The position numbers and the translations under genes were made by a program. Below the pieces are notes generated by a model. It was not told the origin of the DNA and made no database searches. It saw only the letters and a program-made list of their open reading frames with translations. A stretch of DNA of 64,000 nt, from positions 1 through 64,000 of the forward strand of contig JAJZOR010000006.1 in NCBI GenBank assembly GCA_021811435.1. Reading direction: 5' to 3'. Source of the DNA: Microcaldota archaeon (GTDB taxonomy: Archaea; Micrarchaeota; Micrarchaeia; Micrarchaeales; Micrarchaeaceae). The first letter of the stretch is position 1; each line of letters starts with the position of its first letter. Positions 38,527-47,709 of the stretch are shown here, in pieces.

Positions 38527-39732
38527 ATGTTCGGAAGGGCTATGCCTGAAGTAAAGCTTACTTTTGAACAGCTACCGCGATATCTGGACCAGTGCTTTAA
38601 CGGCAAATTGAAGGAGCTCGAGTCCAGCGCGGGCAGGATAATCAAGGCGCTGGATGAGGCGAAGTCGCAGTTCGAGACGGCCTGCGAAGCGTTCGAGAGA
38701 GGGGACTACGAGCCGGACACGGAGTATACGCCAAGGCTGAGCGCATCCTACATAAAGAGCAGCAAGGGGGCCTACATAAAATCGCTGCGCTCCATACTGG
38801 TCCAACACAGCCATGCAGCGCAGGCCGACAACATATACTCTAAGTACAATTACGAGCAATCGGAGATTGAGCACATGGTAGACTCGGTGCTAAAGACAAA
38901 CATGCAGTTCAATCCGGTGCTCCTAGGCTACAGCGACAACCTTGGCAATTTCAAGAAGTCCTTCTCAGCCATGGAAAAGTGCAGCAAGAGCCTGAAGGAC
39001 GAACTGCTGCTGTGGGGAGATGAAGTCGGCGAATACAAAGCCATACTGGGCGAGATAAATAGGATCCAGGTACTGGATGAGGAGCACAGGAATATTCGTT
39101 CGGCGCTGGAAAGCATGACGACCAAGGCCGGCAAGGATGAAGTCACGCCTGCCGATCCGGTCGTTGCGATGCTTGAAAAGGAGCGCGCGAAGCTCTCCGA
39201 TATCGAGAGGAGGCGGGCCGCGCTAGAAGCCAGCATAGCATCAACCATGATGCCCCTTGAGAGGGCTGCCAGGAAATACGACCACTCCATCGGCAGAAAG
39301 TCTAAGGCCGCAGACTACATAACCAAGCCGATGGAAAGCATAGCAGATAAAGCCTCTTACTCGGAGTTCCAGAATATAATAGAGGCGATTTACAAGGAGA
39401 TAGAGTCCGGAGGCCTGGAGATAAAGAGCAAGACCGTTGCGCTGCACTCGGTGGATGTGATAAGGAAGGGCGATGTCCTTAGGGACATCGAGGAAGCGAA
39501 GGCTCTGGACGACGAATTGAGGGAGGGCAGAGCTGCCGTGAGGGACCTAGAGCGCATGGCCGAGGAGATGCACATGCGCGATATCGACTCGAAGAATATA
39601 GAAGCGGAGAGGGAAGCGATGCTAGGCAAAGACGCTGCCATAATAAGAGAGCAGACATCAATCAGGAAGAACATTGAAGACGAATTCGCGAGATTCTATA
39701 AGGTAAGGTTATCGATAGAAACGGCGCATTGA
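38527..39732 (+). CDS. Long coiled-coil protein
   Basis: A 401-residue charged, almost entirely helical protein without membrane segments. Long heptad-rich stretches (KDELLLWGDEVGEYKAILGE, LEKERAKLSDIERRRAALEA and RDLERMAEEMHMRDIDSKNI) suggest parallel coiled coils separated by short breaks. No enzymatic motif is visible. It resembles SMC/Rad50-like or structural coiled-coil proteins only in a general way. The stop overlaps the region just before gpmI, so they may be co-transcribed. ATG 38527 or ATG 38542 start. Confidence 0.7.
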   Translation: MFGRAMPEVKLTFEQLPRYLDQCFNGKLKELESSAGRIIKALDEAKSQFETACEAFERGDYEPDTEYTPRLSASYIKSSKGAYIKSLRSILVQHSHAAQADNIYSKYNYEQSEIEHMVDSVLKTNMQFNPVLLGYSDNLGNFKKSFSAMEKCSKSLKDELLLWGDEVGEYKAILGEINRIQVLDEEHRNIRSALESMTTKAGKDEVTPADPVVAMLEKERAKLSDIERRRAALEASIASTMMPLERAARKYDHSIGRKSKAADYITKPMESIADKASYSEFQNIIEAIYKEIESGGLEIKSKTVALHSVDVIRKGDVLRDIEEAKALDDELREGRAAVRDLERMAEEMHMRDIDSKNIEAEREAMLGKDAAIIREQTSIRKNIEDEFARFYKVRLSIETAH

Positions 39733-39752
39733 CACATGGAAAAGGTTGTTGC

Positions 39753-41309
39753 ATGGCAAGACGGGTTGCTCTGATAGTGCTTGACGGATGGGGCATAGCC
39801 CCGGCTTCCGAATACAACGCGATAAGCCTGGCGAGGAAACCGAACTTCGACTACATATCAAAGAAATTCGGGGTGATGCAGCTATGTGCATCAGGCACGT
39901 GCGTCGGGCTCGAAGAAGGCCAGATGGGCAATTCGGAAGTGGGCCATCTCACCATAGGCGCCGGAAGGGTAATACTCCAGGATCAGACTAGGATAGACGA
40001 CGACATAAACAGCGGGCAGATGGCTAAGAATCACATCCTTTCAACTGCGATAAGGCGCGCGGTTAGGTTGGACTCAACGATACATTTTGTCGGCCTGCTT
40101 TCTGATTCGGGGGTGCACAGCCAGATAAGGCACCTTTTCGCGCTGATCGGGATAGCTGCTGGGCTGGGGGCAAAAAACCTGGCGCTGGACCCTATACTCG
40201 ATGGCAGGGATACTCCACCTGAAAGCAGCATCGGATACATTTCGAAGACCATGGACTATCTCAAAAGCGTAGGAGCAGGGCGGATAACCACGATGTCGGG
40301 CAGGTATTATGCGATGGACAGGGACAACAGGTGGGACAGGACCAGAGCGGCTTACGATGCAATAGTTTATGGCAAGGGGGAGCCGCTGGACGACCCTATA
40401 GCTGCAGTCAGGGATTCGTACAGGGAAAAGGTCACTGACGAGTTCTTCGTGCCGCACGTCGCCGATGGTTATGAAGGCCTCAGGGCTGGCGACCTGGTGA
40501 TATTATTCAATTTCAGGCAGGATAGGATGAGACAGCTGGCCGGGGCGCTTAGCGGCGAACTGGACGGGTTCGGCAAAAAGGCAAGCGGAAAACTGGGCGC
40601 TGCTCCGGGAGGCATAGAACTTGTTTCGATGACAATGTATGATGAAGCGCTGAAGAACATCAAGCCGATAATAAGGCAGGAGAGCGTCAGGGGGACGCTG
40701 AGCAGCGTGATAGCGAAAAACGGGATAATGCAGTTCCATGTTGCTGAGACTGAAAAGTACGCGCATGTCACCTACTTCTTCAATGGCCTCACGGAGAAGC
40801 CGGAGCGGATGGAGGAGAGGGCGCTTATACCGTCGCCAAAGGTGGATTTTTACTATAAAACGCCTAGGATGAGCGCTGGGCTTATAACTGATAAGGTAGT
40901 GGGCGCCATAGAAAGCCAGGCATACGGCTTCATCCTGGCCAATTTCGCCAATGCGGACATGGTCGGCCATACCGGCAAACTGGACGCCACTGTGAAAGCC
41001 ATCGAGGCGGAGGACGGTTTCGTAGGAATGATATTTGATGCATACGAAAAAGAAAGCGGTAACCTGGCACTGATGATAACTGCTGACCATGGAAACGCGG
41101 AAAAGAAGTTCGACCCAGTATCAAACCAGCCCAGCACGTCTCACACTTCTAATCCGGTTCCCTTCATCGTTGTGTCGGATGAATGGAAGCTTGCGGGGTC
41201 CCGGGGCTACAGCGCAGGGCTGCGCGACGTGGCCCCATCTGTGCTTGATATGATGGGGCTGAGAAAGCCCGCGGAGATGACAGGAAGGTCGCTGGTAACG
41301 ACGAAGTAA
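39753..41309 (+). CDS. gpmI: 2,3-bisphosphoglycerate-independent phosphoglycerate mutase
   Basis: A 518-residue iPGM of the two-domain bacterial form, interconverting 3- and 2-phosphoglycerate in glycolysis. It has LIVLDGWGIAP, GQMGNSEVGHLTIGAGRV with the phosphorylated Ser, DPILDGRDTPPESS, SGRYYAMDRDNRWDR, NADMVGHTGKLDATVKAIEA and ITADHGNAEKK, which supply the two-manganese site. Most archaea use the shorter ApgM form, so this is a GpmI-type enzyme in an archaeal background. ATG 39753 is chosen by homology; the frame opens at TTG 39729. Confidence 0.96.
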   Translation: MARRVALIVLDGWGIAPASEYNAISLARKPNFDYISKKFGVMQLCASGTCVGLEEGQMGNSEVGHLTIGAGRVILQDQTRIDDDINSGQMAKNHILSTAIRRAVRLDSTIHFVGLLSDSGVHSQIRHLFALIGIAAGLGAKNLALDPILDGRDTPPESSIGYISKTMDYLKSVGAGRITTMSGRYYAMDRDNRWDRTRAAYDAIVYGKGEPLDDPIAAVRDSYREKVTDEFFVPHVADGYEGLRAGDLVILFNFRQDRMRQLAGALSGELDGFGKKASGKLGAAPGGIELVSMTMYDEALKNIKPIIRQESVRGTLSSVIAKNGIMQFHVAETEKYAHVTYFFNGLTEKPERMEERALIPSPKVDFYYKTPRMSAGLITDKVVGAIESQAYGFILANFANADMVGHTGKLDATVKAIEAEDGFVGMIFDAYEKESGNLALMITADHGNAEKKFDPVSNQPSTSHTSNPVPFIVVSDEWKLAGSRGYSAGLRDVAPSVLDMMGLRKPAEMTGRSLVTTK

Positions 41310-41349
41310 AGCGACGGGCTGCGATAGGCTCAACCTGGGTTTATACATT

Positions 41350-41664
41350 ATGGTTATTAAAATGCAGATAGAGACATTTAGGGGGGATTTATTGCTTGAT
41401 GAGGAATTCGACAGGTTGCTGCACATATGTAGGCTGCGCTTAGGCAGCGAGGAGCGGTCCAAGATAAAAGCGCAGGTAGACGAAGTGATAGAGTACTTTG
41501 ATGCGATAGACGCCATAAAATGCGATGACCTCGAAGAATCATACCATCCAATAAAAATACCTGAGAGGCTCAGGGAAGATGCAGTAAAGGAGTTCGAAAA
41601 CGTAAACGGTATACTGAAGAACGCCAGGATTTACAGATTCTATGTTGTAGGGCCGAAGATATGA
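41350..41664 (+). CDS. gatC: Asp/Glu-tRNA amidotransferase subunit C
   Basis: A 104-residue GatC. LLLDEEFDRLLHICRLRLGS then EERSKIKAQVDEVIEYFDAI and LEESYHPIKIPERLREDAVK match GatC, the small subunit that wraps GatA and GatB and stabilises the complex. It is longer than typical at the N-terminus; the start could be ATG 41350, ATG 41362 or TTG near 41393 (preceded by an aggggggat Shine-Dalgarno-like run). It overlaps gatA by 4 bases. A gtttata box lies directly before. Confidence 0.9.
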   Translation: MVIKMQIETFRGDLLLDEEFDRLLHICRLRLGSEERSKIKAQVDEVIEYFDAIDAIKCDDLEESYHPIKIPERLREDAVKEFENVNGILKNARIYRFYVVGPKI

Positions 41665-43007
41665 CAAGCATAGACGAATTCCGTTCCAAGGCAATCCCAG
41701 ACGGCTATTACAGCGACCTTACGGCAGAGCTTGAGAAACTGAACGGCCAACTCAATGCATTCAATGGCATAAACAGACTGTTGGACAGCGGCTATCCGTT
41801 CAGCGTAAAGGACAACATATGTGTAAAGGGAGTAGAGACCACGGCGTCATCAAAGATACTCTCTGGCTATGTGCCGCCTTTCAGCGCTACCGTGGTTGAT
41901 AGGATGGTCGAAGGGGGTTTCGGATTCCTCGGCAAAACCAACATGGACGAATTCGGCTTCGGGACATTCGGCATAAACTCAGAGAGGATTGCAAGGAACC
42001 CGTTCAACAGCGAATACGTAGCAGGCGGATCGAGCAGCGGCGCAGCTATAGCAACCTCGTTACTCAGATACCATGTCGCCGTGTCTGAATCAACAGGGGG
42101 ATCGATATCCGCGCCAGCTGCGTTCTGCGGCGTGGTCGGATTCACACCCACTTATGGCCTGCTTTCGAGATACGGCCTGATAGATTACGCCAACTCGCTT
42201 GACAAGATAGGCATTATGGCAAGAAGCGCATCGGATATAAGATATGCATTTGACGTGATGCGCGGGCAGGACGACTATGACACCACATGTGTATCGACAA
42301 CGCCTACCTCTGAGAGGAAATCTAGGATAGTGGTTATAACGCAGCTCCTAGATGGGTGCGACAAGGCAGTAGTTTCAAGTTTCGAGAAGTTGCTGGATAG
42401 GCTCAGGAATTCGGGGTACAGGATAGATTATGTGGATGTCGACTTCATAACCAGCGCCATACAGGCGTACTATATAATCTCCATGGCCGAATCGTCAACC
42501 AACCTGGCGAAATTCACCGGTTTCAAATACGGCTACAAACTTGACAGGTTCATTGAGCCGTACAATGAGTTCTTTACTGAGGCGAGGGACGTTTTCGGGC
42601 CTGAAGCTAAGCGGCGCATAATACTTGGCACTTTGGTCAGGAGCGCAAGCGTAAGGAACCGGTATTATTCAAAGGCGCTCAAGGTCCGGACTATGCTGAT
42701 AAACAAGCTTAAGGGGCTGCTCAAGGAAGCGTTCATTCTGAGCCCGACAATGCCCATATTGACGCCAAAGGTGAGCGAAGCGAAGGAACTCAGCCCGGTG
42801 CATGCGTACGCCATGGATGCCATGACCATACCGCCCAATATCTGCGGATTCCCACACATATCGTTCCCATACGATTATGTCGGCGGCATGCCGCTCGGCG
42901 CGCAGATTATCTCTGACCACTTCAACGATTACGCAGTAATGGATTTCGTCTCTGAATGGGAAAAAGGATTCGATTACAGGTTCAAGTACAATCTGGGAGC
43001 GTTATGA
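41661..43007 (+). CDS. gatA: Asp/Glu-tRNA amidotransferase subunit A
   Basis: A 448-residue amidase-signature enzyme that releases ammonia from glutamine or asparagine for GatB. The Ser-cisSer-Lys triad is visible: Lys in YPFSVKDNICVKG, cis-Ser in the ESTGGSISAPAAFCG loop, and the GGSSSGAA motif. IGIMARSASDIRYAFDVM and a C-terminal ICGFPHISFPYDYVGGMPLG are also standard. It is slightly shorter than the typical 480 residues. It overlaps gatC by 4 bases and gatB by 4 bases (ATGA), so gatCAB is one tightly coupled operon. Confidence 0.96.
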   Translation: MTSIDEFRSKAIPDGYYSDLTAELEKLNGQLNAFNGINRLLDSGYPFSVKDNICVKGVETTASSKILSGYVPPFSATVVDRMVEGGFGFLGKTNMDEFGFGTFGINSERIARNPFNSEYVAGGSSSGAAIATSLLRYHVAVSESTGGSISAPAAFCGVVGFTPTYGLLSRYGLIDYANSLDKIGIMARSASDIRYAFDVMRGQDDYDTTCVSTTPTSERKSRIVVITQLLDGCDKAVVSSFEKLLDRLRNSGYRIDYVDVDFITSAIQAYYIISMAESSTNLAKFTGFKYGYKLDRFIEPYNEFFTEARDVFGPEAKRRIILGTLVRSASVRNRYYSKALKVRTMLINKLKGLLKEAFILSPTMPILTPKVSEAKELSPVHAYAMDAMTIPPNICGFPHISFPYDYVGGMPLGAQIISDHFNDYAVMDFVSEWEKGFDYRFKYNLGAL

Positions 43008-44302
43008 GGATAGGATTGGAGGTGCACGTTGCATTGCCGACGAAGACAAAGCTCTTCTGCAGCTGCAGCTCGCATGCCAAGGAGGTAAACTCGTCCATAT
43101 GCCCCATATGCATGGGCATGCCGGGTTCAAAGCCGATGCTCAACAAGGAGGCATTGAGGCTGGCAAAGTCAATTTCACTGGGATTGAATGCGACTGTCAA
43201 CGAAACAACGTCGTTCATAAGGAAGGTATACTTCTACCCGGACCTGCCCAAGTCATTCCAGATAACGCAGCTAAGCCACTCCATAGGCATTGGCGGCTGT
43301 GTCAGGATAGGAAGCAAGACAGTAGGGATAAGGAGAATCCAGATAGAAGAGGATCCTGCAAAAATAATAAGGGAAGATGACTACACGCTCCTAGACTTCA
43401 ACAGGTCAGGCGTGGCGCTGGTCGAGATAGTCACCGAGCCCGACATATCAAGCCTTGATGAGCTGCGCGAATTCCTCACCGAACTGCGCAGCATACTCTA
43501 CTACTCCGGAATCAACATAAGCGAGGAGGTGAAGGCTGACGTGAACATCTCATTGGACAATGAGCGCGTGGAGATAAAAAATGTCACTGGAGTGAACAAT
43601 GTTATAGCTGCGGCAAGATACGAAATCGACAGGCAGGGTGAAATAATCAGGACCGGAGGCAGGGTAAGGATGGAAACCCGCTCATACGACGAGACTTCTA
43701 TGAAAACCGTGGGTTCCAGGGAGAAGGAGACGGAGGAGGAATACGGGTTCATTTATGAGCCTGACCTCACGGATTTCGATTCCGGATCAATCAAGGCGGA
43801 TAAGCCTATAATAGCGAGCGAGGTAGCTGGCAGTATTGCGGAAACGTACGGATTGAACCTTCAGACCTTGCGCGAACTGTCGCTCTTCGATATGGGTTCA
43901 CTGAGGCTGATACAGCTGGGCGTAGTCAAGGATCCGAAGGCAGCGATAGGCGTGGTAGAGTCTCTGAAGAAGCTGGGAAGGATGGACGTGAAAGACGACG
44001 TGTTTTACAAGCTGATAGAAAATGCTGCCAGGGGGCTTCAGATAACCGCGGATATATTAGGCAGAATAGAAAGGGACGAGACAGTAAGCGGCGGCGCGAA
44101 GGGCATAGACCAAAAGGCCATTGACGATGATATAATTGATACGATAAACAAGAGGCAGGACCTCCTCATTGAATACCGCACAAACAAGAAGGTGTTCAAC
44201 TTCCTCGTAGGCATGCTGATAAAGAAGTATAGCGCAAGCCCAAGGTACGTTGCGGAAAGGCTGGCAGCACTGCTGGACAGCAGAATCGATCGTGCCGAAT
44301 GA
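43004..44302 (+). CDS. gatB: Asp/Glu-tRNA amidotransferase subunit B
   Basis: A 432-residue GatB that activates the tRNA-bound Asp or Glu carboxylate with ATP and transfers ammonia. It has RIGLEVHVALPTKTKLFCSC (start), CPICMGMPGSKPMLNKEALR (Zn-cluster Cys and GMPG), YFYPDLPKSFQITQLSHSIG, IQIEEDPAKI, DYTLLDFNRSGVALVEIVTE, the KADVNISL core and a C-terminal YqeY-like helix domain (about residues 290-430). The open frame begins earlier in gatA, but ATG 43004 is the family start. This is the bacterial/archaeal GatB, not GatE. Confidence 0.97.
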   Translation: MRIGLEVHVALPTKTKLFCSCSSHAKEVNSSICPICMGMPGSKPMLNKEALRLAKSISLGLNATVNETTSFIRKVYFYPDLPKSFQITQLSHSIGIGGCVRIGSKTVGIRRIQIEEDPAKIIREDDYTLLDFNRSGVALVEIVTEPDISSLDELREFLTELRSILYYSGINISEEVKADVNISLDNERVEIKNVTGVNNVIAAARYEIDRQGEIIRTGGRVRMETRSYDETSMKTVGSREKETEEEYGFIYEPDLTDFDSGSIKADKPIIASEVAGSIAETYGLNLQTLRELSLFDMGSLRLIQLGVVKDPKAAIGVVESLKKLGRMDVKDDVFYKLIENAARGLQITADILGRIERDETVSGGAKGIDQKAIDDDIIDTINKRQDLLIEYRTNKKVFNFLVGMLIKKYSASPRYVAERLAALLDSRIDRAE

Positions 44303-44332
44303 TGGAGACTGTTTTAATCCACCATAGAAAAA

Positions 44333-44340
44333 GTTTATAA
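44333..44340 (+). promoter_or_regulatory. TATA-like box upstream of aspS
   Basis: gtttataa lies about 26 bases upstream of the ATG at 44362, the exact spacing for a leaderless archaeal transcript starting on that codon, and about 53 bases upstream of the alternative ATG at 44389. It indicates that aspS has its own promoter in addition to any gatCAB read-through. Confidence 0.55.
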
Positions 44341-44361
44341 GCAGTAGGCGAAAATAGATAA

Positions 44362-46182
44362 ATGCGCTTTTGCTATCCAGTGGCTTTTATGGACATCGTG
44401 AACTGCGGGCAGATAGATGAAAGCTACCGCGGGAAGGAGGTAAGCATATTCGGCTGGTGCAGGCTGATAAGGGATCATGGCAAGAAGCTTTTTATAGACC
44501 TGGCGGACAGGTACGGCACTACGCAGCTTGTTTTTGAGGGAGAAGCGAAGGAAGGAGCCGATGCGTTTGGCAGGGAATACGTGATAAACGCGATCGGCGT
44601 AGTGGAGATGAGGGACTATGATACTGTAGACAGCAAGAGCAAGACGGGCAGGGTTGAGATAAACGTCGGCAAATCGGCCTTGATAAGCGCTTCCAAGGTG
44701 CCGCCTTTCGAGCTCATATCCGAAAAGGGCAAGTTCCTGGCGGACGAGGAAATCAGGCTGAAGTACAGGTACCTTGATCTGAGGCGCCCGGAGAGCGTAG
44801 AGAACATAGTCTTCAGGGACCGCGTTACAAAGGCTATAAGGAAGTTCCTCTGGAAGAACGACTTCCTGGAGCTGGAAACCCCGATGCTCATAAAAGATAC
44901 TTATGAAACAGGATCCAGGACGTTTTTGGTGCCGTCCAGGATACATGGCGGCGCGTTCTATGCGCTGCCTCAATCGCCGCAGCTTTTCAAGCAGATGTGC
45001 ATGATTGGCGGGCTGGGCAATTATTTCCAGATAGCGCGGTGTTTCAGGGACGAGGACCCTAGGGAGGACAGGCAGCCGGAATTCACGCAGATAGACATTG
45101 AGGTATCGTTCAAGGACGAGGCGTACATAAATTCCATTATAGAAGGCGCCATAGCGGCGGCCTTTAAAGAGGCCATGAACGCGGATCTTAAGCTGCCGTT
45201 GAGGCGCATGTCCTATAGCGAGGCGCTGGAAAGATACGGCAGCGACAAGCCTGACCTGAGGTTTGGGTCAGAGCTGGTAGACGTGACAGACGAGTTGCGT
45301 GAATGCAGGTATAAAGTGATAAACAGGGTCATAGAAAACGGCGGCCGTGTAAGGGCCATGGCCTTCAACGCAGGCTACGGCAGGCAGGGAAGCAGGATTA
45401 CTGAAAAATTCATGCTGGATACGGTTGAGCTGTCCAAGAGCTTCGGGCTTGGGGGCCTGACCTGGCTATATGTAGATGGAAGTGAGATGAAGTCGGAGCC
45501 GCAAAGCATAGCCCAGGCGCTGAAAAGCTGTGGACAGGCCATCTTGGCCAAGTTGGGGGCAAAGGACGGCTACCTAGTAGTCATAGGCGCGGATCTCTCG
45601 TCTAATGTACTGCTCACAGGCCTGGGCAAGGTGAGGAGGATTATAGGAAACCGCATAGGTGCGTTCAACGAGGACTTCTCTTTCGTTTGGATTGACGGGT
45701 TCCCGGAGTTCGATGTGGACGAGGTAACCGGTACGCTGAAACCTGCGCATAACCCGTTCACCTCTCCGACACCCGACACAATGCAGTATCTCGATACCAA
45801 ACCGGAGCTAGTCATAGGGCGCCAATACGACCTTGTGCTCAACGGCTACGAGCTGGGAAGCGGGTCAATAAGGATCAACGATCCCGCGCTCCAGACCAAG
45901 GTGCTCAGGAAGATGGGGATGTCGGACAAGGCTATAGACGAAACGTTCGGGTTCCTCATAGAGGCGCTCTCCTACGGCGCGCCGATACACGGCGGCATGG
46001 CTCTCGGCCTTGACAGGCTCGTCACTCTGCTGGCCAAGAAGGAGAACATAAGGGACTTCATACTGTTCCCCAAAAACAAGAAGCAGGAACTCTTGGTTGA
46101 CGGATCGCCCACTTGGATAAGCGAAAAGAGGCTCAAGGACGATTATGGAATAAAGCACGACGGATTAAAGCGTACGGACTAG
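44362..46182 (+). CDS. aspS: Bacterial-type aspartyl-tRNA synthetase, probably non-discriminating
   Basis: A 606-residue class II synthetase that charges Asp. Class II motif 2 (FRDEDPREDRQPEFTQIDIE) and motif 3 (GMALGLDRL) are present. Length and a GAD-like insertion (about residues 290-420) identify the bacterial D-type enzyme (580-600 residues), not the archaeal one of about 430 residues. The anticodon-binding domain reads GWCRLIRDHGKKLFIDLADR; the His in RDHG occupies the position where non-discriminating bacterial AspRS has His and E. coli has Leu. Such enzymes also charge tRNA-Asn with Asp, which GatCAB converts to Asn. It lies just downstream of gatCAB. An ATG at 44389 (MDIVNCG) is an alternative start. 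Confidence 0.95.
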   Translation: MRFCYPVAFMDIVNCGQIDESYRGKEVSIFGWCRLIRDHGKKLFIDLADRYGTTQLVFEGEAKEGADAFGREYVINAIGVVEMRDYDTVDSKSKTGRVEINVGKSALISASKVPPFELISEKGKFLADEEIRLKYRYLDLRRPESVENIVFRDRVTKAIRKFLWKNDFLELETPMLIKDTYETGSRTFLVPSRIHGGAFYALPQSPQLFKQMCMIGGLGNYFQIARCFRDEDPREDRQPEFTQIDIEVSFKDEAYINSIIEGAIAAAFKEAMNADLKLPLRRMSYSEALERYGSDKPDLRFGSELVDVTDELRECRYKVINRVIENGGRVRAMAFNAGYGRQGSRITEKFMLDTVELSKSFGLGGLTWLYVDGSEMKSEPQSIAQALKSCGQAILAKLGAKDGYLVVIGADLSSNVLLTGLGKVRRIIGNRIGAFNEDFSFVWIDGFPEFDVDEVTGTLKPAHNPFTSPTPDTMQYLDTKPELVIGRQYDLVLNGYELGSGSIRINDPALQTKVLRKMGMSDKAIDETFGFLIEALSYGAPIHGGMALGLDRLVTLLAKKENIRDFILFPKNKKQELLVDGSPTWISEKRLKDDYGIKHDGLKRTD

Positions 46183-46284: not shown

Positions 46285-47709
46285 TCAAAGGTCAAAGTAC
46301 AGGTAAAACTCGTGCGGCGCTGGCCTGCTCTCGACCTGGGAGTACTGCACCTTCCCGTAATCAGCTATCCAGTCTATTAGTGCACTATCGAACAGCGGCT
46401 TTAGGTAGGCGTTGTCAGAATTAAGCGAATCGACCGCCTCTATCAGGTTGCGCGGCAATTCCTTTACTCCGTAAGCCCTCCTTTTCTCAGGAGTGAGCTT
46501 GTATATGTTCTCGTCAACGGGGTCGCCGGGCTCGATCTTTTTCTTTATGCCGTCCAAGCCGGCCAGCAGCATTGCAGGGAAAGTAAGGTACTGGTTGCAA
46601 CTCGGATCCGGGGTCCTGAATTCCACTCTTTTCTCCGAAGCCTTTCCATTGAAGTATGCCGGTACCCTAACGTTAGCGCTCCTGTTGCCTTTGCTCCATG
46701 CTATGAATATGGGGGCCTCGTATCCGGGTACAAGCCTCTTGTAGGAGTTTGTAGTAGGGGCAACTATGGCGGCCAGGCTCCTGCTGTGCTCCTTCAGGCC
46801 GCCCACGAAATACCTGCCCGTCTGGCTCAATTCGGCGTACTTGTCGTTCCTATCGTAAAACGTGTTTACCTGGTCGCGCCAGAGGCTCACGTGGACATGA
46901 AGGCCCGAGCCGTTGTCTCCGAAAACAGGTTTGGGCATCAGCGTGGCCACCTTGCCGGCATTCGCCGCGACGTTCTTAACCGTGTACTTCAGCGATGCGA
47001 GCTTGTCTGCCTGCGAAAGGAGGGTATCGTACTTTATGTTTATCTCGCATTGACCTTCGCCTGCGACCTCATGATGGTGCGCCTCGACTTCTGTATAGAA
47101 GTTATCGTGCATCACCCTTGACATCTCGCTTCTGAGCAGGTTAAGCGTATCGTGCGGCTCGGCGGGGTAATAGCCCTCCTTCGGCCTGATAGAATACTGG
47201 TTTGGGTTCTCCGCTTCTGATGAATATATCTTGTAGAACGCAGACGTCTCTCGTTGGTTCAGGTTCGTATTCCACTCGACCTTGTCAAATACGAAAAACT
47301 CAAGTTCTGGCCCCCAGTAAGATTTGCCGTTCCACTGCTCCTTCAGGTAGGCCTCCGCGCTGTATGCTATGAAGCGCGGGTCGTGCTTGAAATGCTTTTC
47401 GCCGCCGGCCTCCATCACGAACGACAATATCCTGGCCGTCCTGTAACCATGGCTTGTCTGCCAAGGCAGCATTGCGTATGTCGACTGATCCGGCATTATC
47501 ACCATGTCTGACTCGTATATCTCCTTGAAGCCGCGGAGGGACGAACCGTCGAGTTTTGGCAGGCCGTGAGTCAATGACTCCTCGGTTATGTTGTATGAAG
47601 GTATCGTAACGTGATTTATCTTGCCTATCAGGTCGATTATCTGTAGGTCTACAAACTCTACCTTGTCTTCCTTAATCCTTTGTAGAACGCTGTGAGATTT
47701 GCCAGGCAT
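46285..47709 (-). CDS. glnA: Glutamine synthetase, type I
   Basis: A 474-residue glutamine synthetase making Gln from Glu, ATP and ammonia. It has DLQIIDLIGKINHVTIP, YWGPELEFFVFDKV, HHHEVAGEGQCEINIKYDTL, PKPVFGDNGSGLHVHVSLWR, TTNSYKRLVPGYEAPIFIAW and RVEFRTPDPSCNQYLTFPAM, all catalytic metal and ATP-site motifs of GSI. Length is normal for GSI. The protein supplies Gln for GatCAB and biosynthesis. No GlnB/PII gene is nearby. It is convergent with aspS. Confidence 0.97.
   Translation of the reverse strand: MPGKSHSVLQRIKEDKVEFVDLQIIDLIGKINHVTIPSYNITEESLTHGLPKLDGSSLRGFKEIYESDMVIMPDQSTYAMLPWQTSHGYRTARILSFVMEAGGEKHFKHDPRFIAYSAEAYLKEQWNGKSYWGPELEFFVFDKVEWNTNLNQRETSAFYKIYSSEAENPNQYSIRPKEGYYPAEPHDTLNLLRSEMSRVMHDNFYTEVEAHHHEVAGEGQCEINIKYDTLLSQADKLASLKYTVKNVAANAGKVATLMPKPVFGDNGSGLHVHVSLWRDQVNTFYDRNDKYAELSQTGRYFVGGLKEHSRSLAAIVAPTTNSYKRLVPGYEAPIFIAWSKGNRSANVRVPAYFNGKASEKRVEFRTPDPSCNQYLTFPAMLLAGLDGIKKKIEPGDPVDENIYKLTPEKRRAYGVKELPRNLIEAVDSLNSDNAYLKPLFDSALIDWIADYGKVQYSQVESRPAPHEFYLYFDL

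Follow-up and report, generated by a model that had tools for sequence, protein, structure and literature searches.

We analysed a 64,000-nucleotide stretch of contig JAJZOR010000006.1 from a Microcaldota archaeon (GenBank assembly GCA_021811435.1), hereafter the window, with a focus on a four-gene operon that encodes the amidotransferase GatCAB together with a bacterial-type aspartyl-tRNA synthetase (AspRS), and that is a candidate pathway for tRNA-dependent asparagine synthesis. The operon genes and the relevant segments of its AspRS, numbered in the 606-aa open reading frame (ORF), are as follows.

41350..41664, plus strand: gatC, an ORF of 104 aa (TIGR00135, 53.4 bits against a cut-off of 47.1)
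41661..43007, plus strand: gatA, the amidase subunit, 448 aa (TIGR00132, E 1e-121; Pfam Amidase, E 1.6e-89)
43004..44302, plus strand: gatB, the kinase/amidotransferase subunit, divergent in its tail domain, 432 aa (Pfam GatB_N, E 6e-80)
44362..46182, plus strand: aspS, the bacterial-type AspRS, 606 aa (TIGR00459, 599.5 bits)
44476..44478, plus strand: codon of His39, a candidate determinant of non-discrimination (alignments)
44620..44622, plus strand: codon of Asp87, in the second determinant column (alignment)
44893..44922, plus strand: flipping-loop segment KDTYETGSRT of the AspRS (alignment of 34 DPANN and 15 bacterial AspRS)
45322..45609, plus strand: GAD insertion domain of the AspRS (Pfam PF02938)

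The ORF coordinates, with the start of gatB taken at an inner ATG of a longer ORF, bear out the gene layout described in the original prediction: gatC, gatA and gatB are on the plus strand, neighbouring ORFs share 4 bases (ATGA) at each junction, and aspS follows gatB after a spacer of 59 bases. This order recurs in dozens of species. All three GatCAB subunits, the amidase triad and the GatB catalytic domain were found in the operon. GatA (406.8 bits, NCBIfam cut-off 481.1) and GatB (336.4 bits, cut-off 338, E 1e-100) are recognised at scores below the curated thresholds because both proteins are divergent. The Lys/Ser/Ser triad motifs of GatA (PFSVKDNI, GGSSSGAA and STGGSISAPAA) are all present when inspected by eye. 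The GatB tail gives a weak match to Pfam GatB_Yqey (16-18 bits, under the threshold of 27); an AlphaFold model of GatB based on 26 sequences (pLDDT 83.9) has helices at 370-430 and a Foldseek alignment to full-length GatB, its top PDB matches being GatB of solved GatCAB complexes, with E values to 1.8e-31.

The assignment of the synthetase to the full-length bacterial type also stands. The operon AspRS scores 599.5 bits against the bacterial model TIGR00459 (cut-off 373.85) and 182.2 bits against the archaeal AspRS model, below its cut-off of 368.4. Its residues 15-593 align with T. thermophilus AspRS1 in a phmmer search (E 3e-130), and it is alignable end to end with the P. aeruginosa and E. 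coli enzymes too. The GAD insertion claimed for this protein lies at residues 321-416; its score of 23.3 bits is just short of the Pfam threshold of 23.4, and the domain is matched by all nine members of the AspRS family alignment (best E 7e-9). Phylogenetic analysis does not place the enzyme inside the archaeal AspRS: a branch with 100/100 support parts the bacterial and DPANN operon AspRS from the archaeal ones, and the DPANN operon AspRS form one clade, likewise with 100/100 support.

The suggestion that this AspRS looks non-discriminating gained in strength from the alignments. His39 is aligned with P. aeruginosa His31 and E. coli Leu30. All 34 DPANN AspRS of the tree have His at this site, which varies among the 15 bacterial enzymes sampled (L, K, H and others). 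In the second determinant column, that of Asp87, an Asp or Glu is found in 22/22 genomes compared, and neither Lys nor Gly occurs; we take this column to be that of P. aeruginosa Gly82 and E. coli Lys82. Work on Pseudomonas is said to have established the His/Leu and Gly/Lys sites as determinants of AspRS discrimination. These residues fit a relaxed tRNA specificity of the operon AspRS and are indicative of it rather than a proof. Motif 2, the QSPQ/TSPQ motif and motif 3 are retained in the DPANN operon AspRS. The flipping loop reads S/T-P-E-GARD in 15/15 sampled bacterial AspRS, from which the DPANN members deviate by a TYE-TGSRT loop with an insertion of 1-2 residues, some having TYD or THD with two inserted residues. 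We treated the altered loop as clade-specific variation and not as a family-defining loss, S/T-P-E-GARD being no curated family criterion. Among the AspRS sampled, the altered loop is unique to the operon AspRS clade. In one genome (G041, L103:1303-3058) the bacterial aspS is spread over two overlapping frames, reflecting either a frameshift or an assembly error.

In contrast to aspS, gatA and gatB are not of evident bacterial origin, so that the proposed horizontal acquisition of the whole module held for one component: aspS lies on the bacterial side of its tree, while GatA and GatB fall outside the sampled bacteria. The module GatA belongs to a DPANN clade, with the sampled bacteria forming a separate clade (100/100), and the same is true for GatB (97/97); both placements are limited by the small number of references, 6 bacteria in the GatA tree and 5 bacteria plus one haloarchaeon in the GatB tree. 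The same GatCAB clade occurs with a different synthetase in five genomes (G005, G085, G087, G097 and G098), where a divergent archaeal-type AspRS gene stands directly beside gatC, which points to AspRS as the exchanged part. Transfer of the entire gatCAB-aspS block from one bacterium into the lineage would account for the clearly bacterial side of aspS and for four genes travelling together. This scenario is unlikely in view of the separate DPANN clades of GatA and GatB, the pairing of the same GatCAB clade with archaeal-type AspRS, and the greater identity of the window GatA to other micrarchaeal GatA (44-48%) than to the best plasmid-borne bacterial GatA (31-39%). One plasmid labelled Stutzerimonas stutzeri (L302, NZ_CP078511.1) carries frame-broken gatA and gatB that look foreign for that organism; it is possibly a mislabelled or error-rich assembly.

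We conclude that aspS was probably an old acquisition from bacteria into a DPANN gatCAB locus, moving into the ancestry of Micrarchaeota and Parvarchaeota, with mostly vertical inheritance and repeated loss thereafter. Pairwise distances of the operon AspRS correlate with those of the archaeal AspRS (Mantel test, rho 0.54, p 0.001) and of GatB (rho 0.66), and less so with those of GatA (rho 0.25). G000 and G001, both with the module, share 68% identity for both AspRS types; G002 and G003 are nearer to G000 by archaeal AspRS (80%), yet they are without the module, and for G003 loss is the simplest reading because this genome is 96% complete. A GTDB scan with clade-specific patterns found no named bacterial donor of aspS; two bacterial matches in that scan (L280 and L281) were rejected as lysyl-tRNA synthetases (LysRS).

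The distribution of the module was assessed in 98 relatives and the genome of the window. Nearly all of these are metagenome-assembled genomes (MAGs) or have no stated origin, and the counts tally related genomes, not independent events. The bacterial-type AspRS is present in 23 genomes, the window's included, and 23/23 carry a window-like GatA (Fisher p 4e-16). Eight more genomes have a window-like GatA without this AspRS (the copy in G057 is a fragment), and a more distant GatA (44-48% identity) was found in 17 genomes, several with an adjacent AspRS. The four-gene order is kept in ~18 relatives. A scan of GTDB genomes yielded ~55 loci, whose labels are Micrarchaeota, Parvarchaeota, Nanoarchaeota or Marsarchaeota; nearly all are arranged as gatC-gatA-gatB-aspS where the contig extends far enough. 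Four loci in Parvarchaeota/Nanoarchaeota MAGs (L259, L260, L261 and L266) hold both kinds of AspRS gene, a divergent archaeal-type one being located near the bacterial aspS.

The presence of the module is related to that of other asparagine enzymes. Asparaginyl-tRNA synthetase (AsnRS) was undetected in nine of the 23 genomes with the operon, and completeness reaches 90% or more in five of these nine; in all nine the operon should be the sole route to Asn-tRNA(Asn). Among genomes of 80% or higher completeness, AsnRS is missing from 18/42 GatA-positive and 2/39 GatA-negative genomes (p 7e-5). AsnB (7 genomes) and GatA (49 genomes) never overlap (0/7; p 0.012 for all genomes, 0.23 for the most complete only). 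The archaeal AspRS is retained in at least 21 of the 23 operon genomes, which suggests a division of labour between the two synthetases.

The genome of the window (1.1 Mb, 25 contigs, 92.7% complete) was searched for the remaining components of the two asparagine routes, its absences resting on family searches. Of the genes that the original prediction had named for such a search, asnS, GatDE and an archaeal aspS were found and asnB was not. The second, archaeal AspRS scores 495.8 bits, over its cut-off, and AsnRS 391.6 bits against a cut-off of 342.6; GatD and GatE are both present, as are a class II LysRS and an archaeal glutamyl-tRNA synthetase (GluRS). Neither AsnA nor AsnB was detected by family searches of the 92.7% complete assembly. 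With this gene complement, the module is best read as asparagine synthesis operating beside direct charging, and it would be the only recognised source of new asparagine in the cell. The genome thus combines a second AspRS of the other domain, GatCAB and AsnRS with no detected AsnA or AsnB, the pattern of a dual system; given AsnRS, the indirect route is not the sole one, and given GatD and GatE, GatCAB is not the only route to Gln-tRNA. An intact asnS had been named as half of a finding that would speak against the indirect pathway; it does not do so, since both routes operate side by side in Thermus, Deinococcus and Bdellovibrio (PMC4206432).

An opposite view is that the operon AspRS is discriminating and merely redundant for tRNA-Asp, with GatCAB serving tRNA-Gln. 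Bacterial GatCAB often produces Gln-tRNA(Gln) (PMC4206432), and AsnRS is available in this genome for tRNA-Asn. However, GatD, GatE and the archaeal GluRS are present and the tRNA-Gln, with A1-U72, is of the archaeal GatDE type, therefore GatCAB is not needed for glutamine and that role was rejected. Furthermore, AsnRS is undetected in nine operon genomes, and the discriminating Leu30 and Lys82 occur in no member compared. Altogether we regard a redundant AspRS as most improbable. It is also very unlikely that the operon is a remnant which this species is losing while AsnRS does the charging. Such a reading would agree with the AsnRS of this genome and with the same-genus genomes G002-G004, which lack GatA, the bacterial AspRS and glnA, only G003 among them being nearly complete; against it, the four ORFs are intact with conserved catalytic motifs, and loss of the module would leave no known asparagine synthesis.

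The resident archaeal AspRS was compared with ~50 orthologs. Single residues reportedly determine specificity in the AspRS of Thermococcus. A K or R occupies the Tko K85 column in all orthologs except one, and column 26 has His, not Trp, in nearly all genomes with or without GatCAB. His26 was therefore rejected as a sign of non-discrimination in the archaeal AspRS, for it also occurs in genomes with AsnRS and without GatCAB.

Overall, tRNA-dependent asparagine synthesis is in our judgement the very probable function of the operon, with aspS derived from bacteria, GatCAB from a DPANN clade, and a history of mostly vertical inheritance and repeated loss; the use for Asn-tRNA(Asn) put forward originally is supported by the co-occurrence pattern and by the tRNA-Asn linkage of a sister system described below. 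GatB phosphorylation of the aspartyl side chain and ammonia delivery by GatA are established GatCAB chemistry. We infer that the bacterial-type AspRS would charge tRNA-Asn with Asp, GatB would phosphorylate the side chain of the tRNA-bound Asp, and GatA would deliver Gln-derived ammonia to yield Asn-tRNA(Asn). The archaeal AspRS encoded elsewhere in the genome would serve tRNA-Asp, GatDE would serve tRNA-Gln, and AsnRS could recycle free asparagine, if any.

A more specialised role is conceivable, if rather doubtful: the operon AspRS may be an aspartyl-tRNA synthetase dedicated to tRNA-Asn that no longer serves tRNA-Asp. This idea arises from the retention of the archaeal AspRS in at least 21/23 operon genomes, AsnRS-less ones included, and from the invariant His and acidic residue in the anticodon domain, together with the flipping loop altered in every member. 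A single ordinary non-discriminating AspRS could serve both tRNA-Asp and tRNA-Asn in AsnRS-less genomes. We know of no specialised Asp:tRNA-Asn synthetase that acts only within a transamidosome.

Independent support for an asparagine role comes from a sister GatCAB system, in which a tRNA-Asn(GUU) gene starts -19 to +32 bases from the gatB stop on the same strand at 14/15 assessable loci (L189 and L191-L203, in genomes G028, G023, G025, G010, G024, G026, G015, G030, G008, G016, G011, G027, G050 and G035), the exception being G053. The window operon has no adjacent tRNA-Asn, so this linkage supports the role of the archaeal GatCAB family and not that of the window copy directly. In three of the sister loci a tRNA-Asp gene lies ~120-145 bases past gatB.

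Several observations weigh against the asparagine reading. The AsnRS of this genome implies that the operon is not obligatory there. The absences on which the co-occurrence depends are approximate, since nearly all of the genomes are MAGs or have no stated origin. His at the His39 column is found in some bacterial AspRS too and is alone no proof, and the distances of GatA and archaeal AspRS are uncorrelated (rho 0.06). Finally, bacterial GatCAB requires U1-A72 in tRNA-Asn and excludes tRNA-Asp by its G1-C72 and U20a (PMC9976931), while the one tRNA-Asn found in this genome has G1-C72, G73 and a short D-loop; GatCAB must here follow another, archaeal-style rule. The one tRNA-Asp found has a longer D-loop, as expected of an anti-determinant, and tRNA recognition by GatCAB is perhaps through the D-loop.

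The chemistry proposed here is known; the arrangement, the reverse of that in Thermus and Deinococcus, is what is new. T. thermophilus and D. radiodurans have AsnRS and GatCAB together with two AspRS, a discriminating one of bacterial type and a non-discriminating one of archaeal type (PMC4206432, PMC6523644). The present system resembles theirs in combining AsnRS and GatCAB with two AspRS that stem from different domains, the second AspRS feeding GatCAB (here by prediction). In contrast, the domains are reversed: an archaeal host with a resident archaeal AspRS has an extra, bacterial AspRS with GAD, its aspS lies inside the gatCAB operon, and glutamine is handled by GatDE and not by glutaminyl-tRNA synthetase. 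Bdellovibrio bacteriovorus likewise combines a bacterial-type AspRS and GatCAB with AsnRS and has no AsnA or AsnB; unlike the two AspRS and G1-C72 tRNA-Asn found here, it runs both routes with a single AspRS and needs a U1-A72 tRNA-Asn (PMC4206432). Archaea usually have an archaeal non-discriminating AspRS and GatCAB without AsnRS, and the use of GatCAB for asparagine and GatDE for glutamine in one archaeon is common to both cases (PMC9499178); the canonical AspRS differs in being archaeal and without GAD. Our literature search, which left most subscription journals outside, found no paper on a bacterial-type AspRS in archaea.

The proposed history amounts to an inter-domain exchange of a mis-charging synthetase in the direction opposite to that in Thermus and Deinococcus, and it would explain how minimal-genome archaea without a detected asparagine synthetase could still make asparagine. 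The ~55 natural operons and the sister loci with a different AspRS provide a test set for how a second AspRS can share out tRNA-Asp and tRNA-Asn while the code stays intact, and allow one to ask whether loss of AsnRS follows the second AspRS.

The immediate neighbours of the operon are the following.

39729..41309, plus strand: iPGM, phosphoglycerate mutase, upstream of gatC (Pfam iPGM_N, E 2.7e-65)
46285..47709, minus strand: glnA, glutamine synthetase (Pfam Gln-synt_C, E 6e-114)

iPGM is probably unrelated to the operon. The downstream glnA, convergent with aspS, is a candidate supplier of the amide donor for GatCAB; several related loci also have it close to the bacterial aspS, it accompanies the module in G001 (C2:20082-21503), and it was not found in G002-G004, which lack the module, G002 and G004 being incomplete. 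TATA-like TTTATA elements were noticed by eye at ~41339-41346 ahead of gatC and at ~44334-44341 ahead of aspS. The latter gene may have a separate archaeal promoter and a leaderless start. Judging by starts in the family, the ATG at 44389 is another possible start of aspS, and translation of gatC may start at the ATG at 41362. The GC content of the module (0.44-0.53, lowest in gatC at 0.435) resembles that of the window (0.53, standard deviation 0.03), and many independent MAGs of Micrarchaeota share this AspRS and its operon, two observations that make contamination or a mis-binned contig unlikely. A gene of the L-asparaginase family lies just upstream of gatC at L083:5538-6746, L098:1301-2545 and L102:10627-11958, and upstream of gatC also at L224, L229, L235, L236, L243, L251 and L278, some of these loci being duplicate entries of one contig. 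In G073, asnS follows aspS.

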